From Olsenella uli (GTDB taxonomy: Bacteria; Actinomycetota; Coriobacteriia; Coriobacteriales; Atopobiaceae), in NCBI RefSeq assembly GCF_016900775.1, contig NZ_JACJKN010000003.1, forward strand, positions 62,001 through 126,000: 64,000 nt of DNA, given 5' to 3'. The notes under the pieces were generated by a model that was given only the letters and a program-made list of their open reading frames with translations, had not been told where the DNA came from and made no database searches. Both the position numbers and the translations under genes were made by a program. Within the stretch, counting starts at the first letter, position 1, and each line of letters opens with the position of its first letter. Positions 18,133-59,293 of the stretch are shown here, piece by piece.

Positions 18133-18285
18133 GGCATGTTGCGGGATTGCGGGTTGTGGCATTTTTCGGCCGGCCGGCGTCAACGAATTTGGGGTTATGG
18201 CACTGAGTGTCCTGCCATAACCCCAAATCCCGCAACATGCCGAGAAGAACAGCCGGTTGACGCCCCACCGCAGCTGCCACAACCC
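18133..18285. repeat. Nested palindromic element with TGGCA cores
   Basis: Three inverted pairs interleave here: 18133-18148 with 18226-18241 (16 bp, perfect), 18188-18202 with 18213-18227 (15 bp, perfect, 10-base loop) and 18151-18161 with 18275-18285 (11 bp, perfect). Each includes a TGGCA/TGCCA word. The stretch 18014-18421 has no credible gene. The element may be a mobile palindromic repeat or a folded RNA; nothing identifies its family. Confidence 0.75.
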
Positions 18286-18421
18286 CCAAACGACAACACC
18301 CGTAGGCCGGAAACTGCCATGGCCTCGTTTTTGACAACGCACGGGAAGGGGCGGCGGCGCGCGCCCGCGCGAAGCCGGCGAGCCTCCGCCCCCTCCTTCG
18401 AGGGCAGCTCCTCCGGCGGCG

Positions 18422-56379: not shown

Positions 56380-57408
56380 CTACGCGCGCTCCGCGATCTC
56401 CTTCACCAGGCGCTCGGTCTTCTCCCAGCCGAGGCAGGCGTCGGTGATGGACTTGCCGTAGACGCTCCCGCCCACGGGCTGGTTGCCGTCCTCGAGGTAG
56501 GACTCGACCATGAAGCCGCGCACGAGGCCGCGAATCTGGGCGTTGCGCGCGCAGGAGTCGAGCACCTCGTGGCAGATGCGAATCTGCTCGAGGGGCCGCT
56601 TGCCGGAGTTGTCGTGGTTGCAGTCGATGATGGCCGCCGGGTTGGAGAACTTGTCGGCAGTGTACTTCTCCGCCAGGCGCTCGAGGTACTCGTAGTGGTA
56701 GTTGGGGTAGTTGATGCCGTCAAGCCCCACGTAGCCGCGCAGCACGGCGTGGGCGAGCGGGTTGCCCGTGGTGTTGACCTCCCAGTTGCGGAAGATGAAG
56801 GTCTGGCGCTGCTGGGCGGCGTAGATGGAGTTGAGCATGACGTCGGTGGAGCCGCCGGTGGGGTTCTTCATGCCCACGGGCATGGGGACGCCCGAGGCCA
56901 CGAGGCGGTGCTCCTGGTTCTCCACGGAGCGCGCGCCCACCGCGATGTAGGCAAGAAGGTCGATGAGGTACTGGTAGTTGGTGGGATAGAGCATCTCGTC
57001 GGCGGTGAAGAGGCCCGTCTCCTCGACCACGCGCACGTGCATGCGGCGGATGGCCTTGACCCCCTCGAGCAGGTCGTCGCCGGACTCGGGGTCGGGGTTG
57101 TGGAGCAGGCCCTTGTAGCCGACGCCCTTGGTGCGCGGCTTGTTGGTGTAGACGCGCGGGATGACGAGGATGCGGTCCTTCACCGTCTCGGCGAGCTTGG
57201 CCAGGCGGCAGGCGTAGTCGAGCACGGAATCCTCGCGGTCCGCGGAGCACGGGCCGATGATGAGCAGCAGGCGCTCGTCCTCGCCGCGCAGGATTGCGGA
57301 GACCGCCGCGTCAAAGCCCGCCTTGCGCTCCGCCATCTCGGCGGAGAGGGGCATCTCGGCGCGGATGTCCTTGGGGATGGGCAGAAGGCGCTTGAACTTC
57401 ATAGACAT
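56380..57408 (-). CDS. 3-deoxy-7-phosphoheptulonate synthase (DAHP synthase, class I)
   Basis: A 342-residue AroF/G/H-type synthase that joins phosphoenolpyruvate and erythrose-4-phosphate, the first step of the shikimate pathway. LLLIIGPCSADRED, the PRTKGVGYKG motif, PVGMKNPTGG and the metal-site IIDCNHDNSGK are visible. ATG 57408 follows GGAGG; the longer frame starts in an unlikely place. It stands alone, not in an aromatic operon. Confidence 0.93.
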   Translation of the reverse strand: MSMKFKRLLPIPKDIRAEMPLSAEMAERKAGFDAAVSAILRGEDERLLLIIGPCSADREDSVLDYACRLAKLAETVKDRILVIPRVYTNKPRTKGVGYKGLLHNPDPESGDDLLEGVKAIRRMHVRVVEETGLFTADEMLYPTNYQYLIDLLAYIAVGARSVENQEHRLVASGVPMPVGMKNPTGGSTDVMLNSIYAAQQRQTFIFRNWEVNTTGNPLAHAVLRGYVGLDGINYPNYHYEYLERLAEKYTADKFSNPAAIIDCNHDNSGKRPLEQIRICHEVLDSCARNAQIRGLVRGFMVESYLEDGNQPVGGSVYGKSITDACLGWEKTERLVKEIAERA

Positions 57409-57532
57409 GCGAGTTTCCTCCATGGGGTCGGCTGCGTGCCCGTGCATTATCGCGCGCGGGGTCCTCGGGGCGCGGCGGCCCGGCGAGCTTGTCTTGAAAA
57501 CGTAACCCCGGGCTCGTGAGGCACGTCCCGTC

Positions 57533-57765
57533 TGTGCAATCAGGCCCTTGGTGCGAAGGCCGGCCGCCGCGGTGCGCAGTCGGGCCCTTGGTGCGAAGGT
57601 CTTTTCCCGACCTGTCAGGTATGGCTACCTCTTCTACGAGCTAATTTAAAAGCTAGAGATTAACCATGCTCCCAAAACTCGCCAAAACCCGAAAAGAGGC
57701 TTCGCACCAAGGGCCCGACTGCGCACCGCGGCGGCCGGGCTTCGCACCAAGGGCCTGATTGCACA
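57533..57765. repeat. Inverted repeat with 66-bp arms
   Basis: Bases 57533-57598 and 57700-57765 are reverse complements at 65 of 66 positions, around a 101-base, AT-richer loop. Each arm holds two similar units of about 26 bases ending GGCCCTTGGTGCGAAG, so the element has four copies. No gene is credible in it. It may be a miniature transposable element, a folded RNA or a palindromic repeat; it fills most of the 57409-57844 gap. Confidence 0.85.
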
Positions 57766-57844
57766 CCCACGGTCCCGGACATCGCCGTCGCTGCCCCAAA
57801 CCGCTACCATGGACGCGAAGCGGACCCGTCCCCGAGGAGGCACC

Positions 57845-59293
57845 ATGCCCTGCACCACCATCCTTGTTGGAAAGCGCGCCAGCTACGATGGGTCGACCAT
57901 CGTCGCCCGCAACGAGGACTCGTCGAACGGCGAGTTCTGCCCCAAGCGCCTTGTCTCGCGCCCGGCCCCCAGGGCCAAGGACGTCTATCGAAGCGTCATC
58001 TCCCACCTTGAGATAGAGCTCCCCGCAGGGGGTGTCCGCTACACCGCCCTGCCCAACGCCGACCTCAAGGAGGGGCTCTGGGAGGAGGCCGGCTTCAGCG
58101 CCCGCAACGTGGGCATGAGCGCCACCGAGACCCTCACCACCAACGAGCGCGTGCTCGCGGCCGACCCGCTCGTGCGCTACGACGAGAAGGCCGGGACGCC
58201 CGGCGGCATCGGCGAGGAGGACATGCTCACGCTCGTCCTCCCCTACATGACGAGCGCCCGCGACGGCGTCCTGCGGATGGGGGCGCTGCTCGAGGCCCAC
58301 GGCACCTACGAGATGAACGGCATCGCCTTCTCCGACGCCGACGAGATATGGTGGATGGAGACCGTGGGCGGCCACCACTGGATCGCCCGCCGCGTGCCGG
58401 ACGACTGCTACGTCACGATGCCCAACCAGCTCGGCATCGACGACTTTGACCTCGACGACGCCTATGGCGCGCAGGAGGAGCACCTGTGCTCCGCCGACCT
58501 GCGCGAGTGGATGGCCGCGAACCACCTTGACCTCACGATCGGCGTCTCGTCCGGGCACTTCAACCCGCGCGACGCCTTCGGCAGCCACTCGGACTCCGAC
58601 CACGTCTACAACACGCCGCGCGCCTGGGCCATCCAGCGCGCCCTCAACCCGCACGCCGGCCCCTGGGACACCGCCGCGCCGGCCGCCGACTTCGGTCCCG
58701 AGAGCGACTCGATCCCCTGGTGCCGCGAGCCGGAGCGCAAGCTCACCGTCGAGGACGTGAAGTACGTCCTCTCCCTCCACTACCAGGGCACGCCGTACGA
58801 CCCGTACGCCGGCGGGGAGGGGGCCGGCCGCTACCGCCCCATCGGTATCAACCGCAACAGCCAGCTCGCCGTCCTGCAGCTGCGCCCCTACGTGGCGCCC
58901 GAGCGCGCGGCGCTGCAGTGGGTCGCCTACGGCAGCAACGCCTTCAACGCGCTCGTGCCGCTCTACGCCAACGTCGACGAGACCCCGGCCTACCTCGAGG
59001 ACACCACCACGCGCGTGACGAGCGAGAACTTCTACTGGGCAAACCGCCTCGTCGGCGCGCTCGCGGACGCCGCCTACGGCGCGTGCCTGCCGCATGTGGA
59101 GCGCTACCAGGAGGCCCTCACGTCCCGCTGCGCCGCGCTCGTCCGGGCCTGCGACGCCGAGGGCGGAGACCTCGTCGCCTGCAACCAGGCCATCGCCGAC
59201 GAGTGCCGCCGACAGACGGAGGACCTGCTCGACAAGGTCCTCTACGAGGCGAGCATGCGCATGAGAAACGGATTCTCCCGCAGCGACAACTAG
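57845..59293 (+). CDS. pepD: C69-family dipeptidase (PepD-like)
   Basis: A 482-residue N-terminal-nucleophile peptidase. MPCTTILVGKRAS gives Cys3 as the likely catalytic residue after removal of Met-Pro. GSTIVARNEDSS and the AWAIQRALNP segment are typical of the family. It cleaves dipeptides from proteins or peptidoglycan. ATG 57845 follows CGAGGAGG; the upstream ATG has no site. No signal peptide is seen, so it is cytosolic. Confidence 0.93.
   Translation: MPCTTILVGKRASYDGSTIVARNEDSSNGEFCPKRLVSRPAPRAKDVYRSVISHLEIELPAGGVRYTALPNADLKEGLWEEAGFSARNVGMSATETLTTNERVLAADPLVRYDEKAGTPGGIGEEDMLTLVLPYMTSARDGVLRMGALLEAHGTYEMNGIAFSDADEIWWMETVGGHHWIARRVPDDCYVTMPNQLGIDDFDLDDAYGAQEEHLCSADLREWMAANHLDLTIGVSSGHFNPRDAFGSHSDSDHVYNTPRAWAIQRALNPHAGPWDTAAPAADFGPESDSIPWCREPERKLTVEDVKYVLSLHYQGTPYDPYAGGEGAGRYRPIGINRNSQLAVLQLRPYVAPERAALQWVAYGSNAFNALVPLYANVDETPAYLEDTTTRVTSENFYWANRLVGALADAAYGACLPHVERYQEALTSRCAALVRACDAEGGDLVACNQAIADECRRQTEDLLDKVLYEASMRMRNGFSRSDN

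Follow-up and report, generated by a model that had tools for sequence, protein, structure and literature searches.

The window, the whole stretch of 64,000 nucleotides of Olsenella uli that was analysed, contains a near-perfect inverted repeat in the gap between two genes that both read away from it. Its arms (57533-57598 and 57700-57765) are 66 nt long, complementary at 65 of 66 positions (98%) and separated by 101 nt, which confirms the coordinates and the match given in an earlier note on this DNA. The internal duplication of the arms that the note had described is also real: the duplicated unit is a 26-bp repeat, present in four copies in a 40-bp register. The 16-mer GGCCCTTGGTGCGAAG occurs exactly at 57543 and 57583 on the forward strand and at 57700 and 57740 on the reverse strand. 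Allowing up to three mismatches, it has 7 matches in the window, compared to a mean of 1.14 and a largest value of 5 in shuffled sequences, of which 0 out of 100 reached 7. The features of the locus, whose element is L036 in our series, are as follows.

56380..57447, − strand: flanking gene that we take, from recognition of its sequence, to be of the DAHP-synthase type (aroG-like); reads away from the element; outside the system
57533..57558, + strand: outer left repeat L1, TGTGCAATCAGGCCCTTGGTGCGAAG
57573..57598, + strand: inner left repeat L2, starting 40 bp after L1
57599..57699, no strand: central segment of 101 bp, mostly unique to the window locus
57700..57725, − strand: inner right repeat R1, from the weight-matrix layout of the element
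57740..57765, − strand: outer right repeat R2, 40 bp from R1
57809..59293, + strand: flanking gene presumably of the C69-dipeptidase type, likewise recognised from its sequence; start maybe near 57846; reads away from the element; outside the system

The DAHP-synthase-type gene has a DNA match in all 31 genomes of the genus. No Rfam family reached its gathering score in the window and a tRNA scan of the window returned nothing. A second element lies in the window at 18138-18339; it belongs to family B2 (see below) and consists of five repeats of the GTTG..GGGTTATGGCA type, of which two run forward and three are inverted.

The inverted repeat belongs to a family of phased intergenic elements

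At least 23 elements of the same kind, the inverted repeat of the window among them, were found in this genome and are referred to as family A. They share a layout in which two 26-bp direct repeats are followed by a mostly unique centre of about 100 bp and then by both repeats in inverted orientation. The consensus repeat is TGCGCAATCAGsCCCTTGGTGCGAAG and the register is 40 bp, or 41 in three loci. Twenty-two of the elements were found with a weight matrix after a search of the own genome and fetching of the loci. All but one of these have four repeats; L020, which has three and a score of 85, was omitted from the four-repeat statistics. The 23rd element, L120 (contig C7, about 67538-67772), has the variant repeat GGGATAGTGYGAAG, which is the repeat type of two other genomes of the genus, G012 and G022. 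L029 has an intermediate repeat type. Both L120 and L029 are possible relics of a specificity switch.

Spacers and centres vary between the copies and, by eye, only the window element and L009 have near-perfect arms that include the spacer. Although spacers and centres have diverged, the layout itself persists at the 23 own loci and at their orthologous sites in other species, in line with the maintenance that had been proposed to explain the long identity of the arms. For the analysis of phasing and within-locus similarity, 24 centre distances were used, 22 from the own genome and two from the related genome G027. The distance between the inner repeats of the 22 own elements was 107 bp (one element), 117-118 bp (six), 125 bp (one), 127-129 bp (13) or 139 bp (one), with steps that are mostly about one helical turn. 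Such helical steps point to a protein on double-stranded DNA. They speak against the long double-stranded RNA that the earlier note had envisaged, as does the finding, by eye, that among the own elements only the window's and L009 have spacers that agree between the arms. Within a locus, the variable middle bases of L1 resemble those of R2, and those of L2 resemble those of R1, beyond what is seen in permuted loci (0 of 2000 each). The tandem pairs are likewise alike (L1-L2, 0 of 2000; R1-R2, 2 of 2000) and the crossed pairs are less alike (64 and 7 of 2000).

Within the centre, a fitted core motif (RCAAAAnSCCWGTTGG) tends toward discrete distances. This motif is only a hint, since it was fitted without a control to the very set of 74 elements that it describes, in which some elements were fetched twice, and scores below 10 in 18 of the 74; in the centre of the window element it scores −0.1 and is not recognisable. 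A likeness of the core motif to sigma-54 was dropped by eye, as the spacing is wrong.

All 22 elements are extragenic, overlapping no gene predicted by a simple codon-usage caller. The adjacent genes are arranged in tandem in 12 cases, divergently in 7 and convergently in 3. This mixed orientation speaks against a promoter switch, and a promoter in the loop, as had been suggested for the window element, is therefore not favoured. Just outside element L018 (about 1850-1900) lies a perfect long hairpin, AGGTGACGGGGGCGTTTGTCATG...CATGACAAACGCCCCCGTCACCT, perhaps a terminator.

A DUF559-type gene adjoins the element at the corC locus

One family A element is found at the corC locus, together with the gene of a protein that we call the A protein.

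C54:104336-105355 of the own genome: A-protein gene, corC locus, directly beyond the element

The A protein has about 340 residues and matches DUF559 with an E-value of 1.5e-5 and 25.2 bits, against a Pfam cut-off of 20.6; its orthologue in G027 also lies above the cut-off, with 21.4 bits. According to a passage on this domain in PMC12907096, DUF559 occurs in Vsr-like PD-(D/E)XK endonucleases, and a DUF559 protein of Caulobacter is described as Vsr-like and responsible for an SOS response. In an alignment of 19 sequences, some of them partial, D230, E241, H248, D257 and E258 are invariant, as are the PDF, W, EY, S, H and DE..RR residues. Judged by the family, the five invariant residues are putatively catalytic. 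No sequence in the PDB matched at E≤1, and a single-sequence fold model was useless (pLDDT 34).

The A protein is present once in 26 of the 31 genomes of the genus. At E≤1e-30 it was not found in G001, G008, G011, G020 and G026, of which the assemblies of G011 and G020 are 76% and 81% complete. An element with a period of 40-41 (score 96-142) is located 3′ of the gene in all 26 genomes, at −2 to 59 bp from the matched gene end. When 22 genomes were compared at the corC locus, gene and element were found together in 19 and were both absent in three (G001, G008 and G026). The 26 cases represent one inherited arrangement and not 26 independent events, and the weight of the linkage therefore lies in the co-variation of motif and protein. 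G020 harbours an A-like element at the aroG locus and no A protein at E≤1e-30 in its 81% complete assembly. The DUF559 protein encoded by this single-copy gene at corC is the best candidate for the recogniser of the A repeats.

Two further element families have their own DUF559-type genes

When 340 kb of the own contig C1 were scanned without a preset motif, 17 elements scored at least 100, whereas 60 shuffled windows reached at most 86. Six of them belong to family A, six to a family named B2 and five to a family named C2; no other family was found. The B2 repeat is GTTGCGnnAATnGGGGTTATGGCA and the C2 repeat is TTAGAAAATsGCGGTCGTTGCGG, both with a period of 41. Five further hits on C1, with scores of 95-97, fall into none of the families and resemble coding DNA of low complexity.

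The own genome contains 14 DUF559-type loci. The B2 gene (C1:113142; C1:112989-114100) lies between two B2 elements (scores 120 and 109), and the C2 gene (C66:77745-78857) between two C2 elements (102 and 98), so that each of the three families is accompanied by a DUF559-type gene of its own, which lies next to or between members of that family. Compared with the A protein, the B2 and C2 proteins give matches with E-values of 7.1e-11 and 2.2e-9, and neither reaches a Pfam cut-off. The B2 gene carries a frameshift in the own genome; its G022 counterpart (L203:7478-8596) is intact. Clear elements are present at only three of the 14 loci; four others score 90-92 and seven score lower, and random windows of G022 reach 90 in 9 of 119 cases.

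The distribution of the two additional families in relatives was determined by pattern searches. In the own genome the C2 pattern has 34 matches, spread over about 21 places; it has two matches (one element) in G022 and none in eight other genomes, and G012 lacks C2 elements. For the C2 protein no close orthologue was found in G022 or G012, where the best match is the B2 orthologue (57 and 56%); G022 thus keeps its single C2 element although no close C2 gene accompanies it. Matches to the B2 pattern number 50 in G000 (the own genome), 61 in G012 and 40 in G022, and 1-10 in seven others, with 1-4 matches for a control pattern read backward.

Among 30 loci of the B2/C2 clade in the genus, an element scoring at least 90 flanks the left side in 21 cases, the right side in 14 and both sides in 13, compared to 0 of 60 shuffled flanks. 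In most of the 13, one locus-specific motif is present on both sides (by eye). A paralogue in G001 (L267) is bracketed by elements with yet another motif (135 and 121), and a second one (L283) is next to a clear element (112) and a weak one (91). L283, as well as the paralogue L262 of G027, adjoins period-38 elements with the motif TGCGCAA...CGGTTRTGCGC. In a draw at the level of the order, DUF559-type homologues were found in 49 of 80 genomes, five from the own genus included. At 25 paralogue loci from outside the genus no element scored 94 or higher; the best reached 91 and shuffled sequences at most 88. DUF559-type paralogues are numerous over the order, with 10 matches in G092.

Orthologous sites carry different repeat sequences

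Of 59 other relatives, G027 alone has the exact family A repeat; its three elements occupy sites orthologous to own elements. In genome contigs of 84,980 species, a scan that may leave out records of the own genome, the repeat pair was found on two contigs, both from an uncultured Olsenella; it was found on none of the viral contigs searched. Relatives were compared with a motif-free four-repeat detector, for which 12 shuffled controls gave at most 76 of 156. At the corC locus it found four-repeat elements in 17 of 20 other genomes of the genus (scores 96-140), most with their own repeat sequence, and none in G001, G008 and G026. At the aroG locus, 17 of 30 rows, the own genome included, scored at least 90; G011 gave no row. 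In two of the 17, G001 and G027, the gap between the aroG and C69 genes is only 93 bp, and their element therefore lies elsewhere. By eye, the same motif type is present at corC and aroG in 11 of the 13 other genomes with both elements, the exceptions being G013 and G017. The repeat motif of G012, for instance, is GGATAGTGYGAAG. The sites are often orthologous across the genus and the repeat sequence is species-specific.

Repeat motif and DUF559 protein co-vary

We compared motif similarity with protein identity over 325 pairs of 26 genomes by partial Mantel tests. Motif and protein were correlated when AroG was accounted for (r=0.252; 6 of 5000 permutations), whereas motif and AroG were not when the protein was accounted for (r=−0.015; 2785 of 5000). 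With 19 genomes, and with corC instead of AroG for the background, an earlier calculation gave a weaker result (r 0.21; 83 of 5000). The correlation is modest. Individual genomes show the same tendency. Between the own genome and G012 the corC protein is 99% identical and the A protein 69%, and the motifs differ; between the own genome and G027 the corC protein is 87% identical and the A protein 74%, and the motif is the same. The A protein of G022 is 66% identical to the own one, whereas its B2 protein is 86% identical with an unchanged motif, and two other DUF559-type paralogues are 83% and 97% identical. These values come from the four of 13 own paralogues that have a likely orthologue in the G022 sequence compared; nine have none there. 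The A protein is not the sole fast one, as for C6, one of these nine paralogues, the best match in the G012 sequence compared, orthologue or not, is 62% identical. The evidence from these comparisons suggests that the repeat sequence tracks the DUF559 protein and not the species background.

Centres are inverted in some pairs and some elements appear to have been lost

Among 34 orthologous pairs of elements, the centre was inverted in 11 and forward in 11, while 12 were undecided. In the clearest inversion the scores were 79 versus 13, with shuffles reaching at most 19. Two of the 11 inversion calls use L136 (contig C18 of G009). L136 is 96% like G022, whereas G009 elsewhere is about 82% like it, and it may be a contaminant or a recent transfer. 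Inspection by eye of the group L012/L131/L127/L136 shows outer repeats and spacers in unchanged orientation, which places the exchange at the inner repeats.

Nineteen elements of C1 were then sought in the syntenic sequence of G022, where seven lacked a mapping on both sides. Two A elements (133794, 240583), one B2 element (140424) and three C2 elements (181670, 219431, 291644) are missing in G022, and the gaps at these empty sites are 155-310 bp shorter. Present are the A elements at 124785 and 175474 and the B2 elements at 112768, 114301, 163124 and 261730. Elements are thus present or absent between species as whole or nearly whole units. G012 has an element (L134) at C1:240583 and G022 keeps an outer-repeat remnant at C1:140424, and for these reasons the two polarisable absences look like losses. 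No clear gain of an element was seen among the species compared. Although the other copies that the earlier note had considered do exist, no clear case of the target-site duplication it had paired with them was found at five aligned sites, which have flanks that are 80-95% identical and are in part remnants. In G022, a gene that we take to encode an IS110-type transposase lies inside the centre of L119 (about 1215-2922), the element orthologous to the own L029. We rejected this gene as an autonomous form of the elements, because an ordinary element has here been interrupted by the inserted gene.

Discussion

We propose, with a probability of about 0.65, that the inverted repeat of the window is a member of a set of dispersed intergenic elements that are helically phased sites for a fast-evolving DUF559/Vsr-like protein. 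The probability is kept at this level because both polarisable absences look like losses and the species compared offered no clear gain. Each element would offer four predicted binding sites, perhaps with a weak fifth in the centre. The A protein is predicted to bind the paired sites on each side and to join the arms over the short centre. Occasional cuts at the inner repeats, repaired with the other arm as template, could flip the centre and homogenise the arms, and might rarely remove, or perhaps copy, the whole unit. Such rare cutting and repair between arms would also account for arms copied as a whole, like those of the window element. The gene would stay linked to an element, and the element sequence would change with the protein.

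The regulatory or architectural alternatives differ in what they ask of the protein. If a DUF559-type or other protein looped or organised the chromosome and its nuclease activity were irrelevant, the helical steps of the centre, the discrete positions of the core motif (fitted without a control) and the maintenance of sites at orthologous loci across the genus would be understandable. We nevertheless regard this as unlikely, because the elements are either there or missing as whole or nearly whole units, the catalytic-type residues are invariant and motif turnover between close species is unusual for a host regulator; the 12 tandem, 7 divergent and 3 convergent settings make promoter control unlikely in particular. 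It is improbable that the elements are phase-variable invertible switches served by a dedicated site-specific recombinase. The centre is indeed inverted between close species and bounded by the inner repeats, but the elements lie beside housekeeping-type genes in any orientation, convergent included, and a search for recombinases of the tyrosine type (serine recombinases fall outside it) gave only three matches in the own genome and only two in G025, which yet carries the corC element. A dedicated tyrosine recombinase is thus not needed. Inverted repeats with short loops can also flip without a dedicated enzyme.

A role in self-recognition or defence, with a nuclease that attacks DNA and chromosomal elements that act as sink, antidote or self mark, would suit a nuclease-like family with several diverging paralogues per genome and rapid motif change. 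It has little probability in our judgement, as single elements are missing in relatives and the PADLOC defence models gave a best match with an E-value of 0.013 for one of three proteins and no match for the other two. Multiple copies, inverted ends, presence or absence at syntenic sites and the near absence of C2 from close relatives would all be expected of MITE copies of a conventional DNA transposon. However, the interiors, both centres and spacers, differ between own copies, copies remain at orthologous sites even as their repeat sequence is replaced, and five alignments gave no clear target-site duplication, so that we consider ordinary MITEs quite improbable; to our knowledge, four phased sites are not typical of them. 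Least of all do we expect a long hairpin RNA or single-stranded DNA structure to be the functional form. The nested similarity of L1 to R2 and of L2 to R1 (0 of 2000 each) would agree with pairing; tandem pairs are alike too. However, spacers are unpaired in most copies (by eye), the window holds no Rfam family at gathering score, centre lengths follow helical steps, and one motif is common to the repeats of a genome, which pairing alone does not require.

The preferred reading, phased sites for a DUF559/Vsr-like protein, has its closest counterpart in the REPIN/RAYT systems. The relevant passages of PMC3116915 and PMC8049555 describe dispersed extragenic inverted repeats served by an enzyme gene that is dedicated to them and present once, several classes per genome that each lie close to their own gene, and vertical persistence; for the GI class, the two 16-mers are given as starting 71 bp apart (PMC3116915). 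The elements described here are likewise extragenic, fall into several families with an adjoining enzyme gene for each, persist for long and change together with the enzyme. In contrast to the RAYTs, which are IS200-like HUH (Y1) tyrosine transposases, the linked proteins match DUF559/REase_MTES_1575 or nothing and no transposase family, and the elements have four 26-bp repeats, two plus two inverted in a register of 40-41 bp, versus two REPs in one hairpin. Since both enzyme and element architecture are unrelated, the elements are not members of REPIN/RAYT. By analogy, we propose that the system may work by REPIN/RAYT logic with an unrelated enzyme. The likeness of the A protein to Vsr-like DUF559 proteins consists of its score above the Pfam cut-off and the conserved PDF, EY, H and RDE residues.

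Two other known arrangements are similar in part. Lambda-type attachment sites have paired direct-repeat arm sites flanking a short centre, with a length of about 230 bp. Here, however, there are many copies per genome with symmetric inverted repeats, and G025 has an element and no extra tyrosine integrase. Invertons share with our elements the short segment between inverted repeats that occurs in both orientations in relatives, but the gene context is unfit for promoter control and there is no dedicated tyrosine recombinase. A DUF559 protein linked to a dispersed repeat family was not found in text searches of an open-access library, which suggests that the pairing of four-repeat elements with a DUF559-type protein is new as far as that library shows; most subscription journals lie outside it.

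A further step can be put forward tentatively: a Vsr-fold nuclease and its roughly 90 chromosomal sites might change specificity together, with the enzyme's own cutting and repair rewriting the repeats in place. We think this possible, though doubtful. Recognition that switches fast, as in PRDM9 hotspots, is a comparable case. If it is true, repeats would be rewritten at all loci while spacers and centres stay, and several such systems would exist in one genome.

DUF559-type proteins are widespread and apparently of largely unsettled role. REP/RAYT are the best-known enzyme-linked dispersed repeats of bacteria; if another, unrelated enzyme family is coupled to extragenic repeats as well, it would follow that partnerships of this kind have arisen repeatedly. 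The genus offers a natural series of some 20 protein-motif pairs, which makes it testable how a nuclease-like protein comes to recognise other DNA and how its sites, some 90 in number, keep pace.
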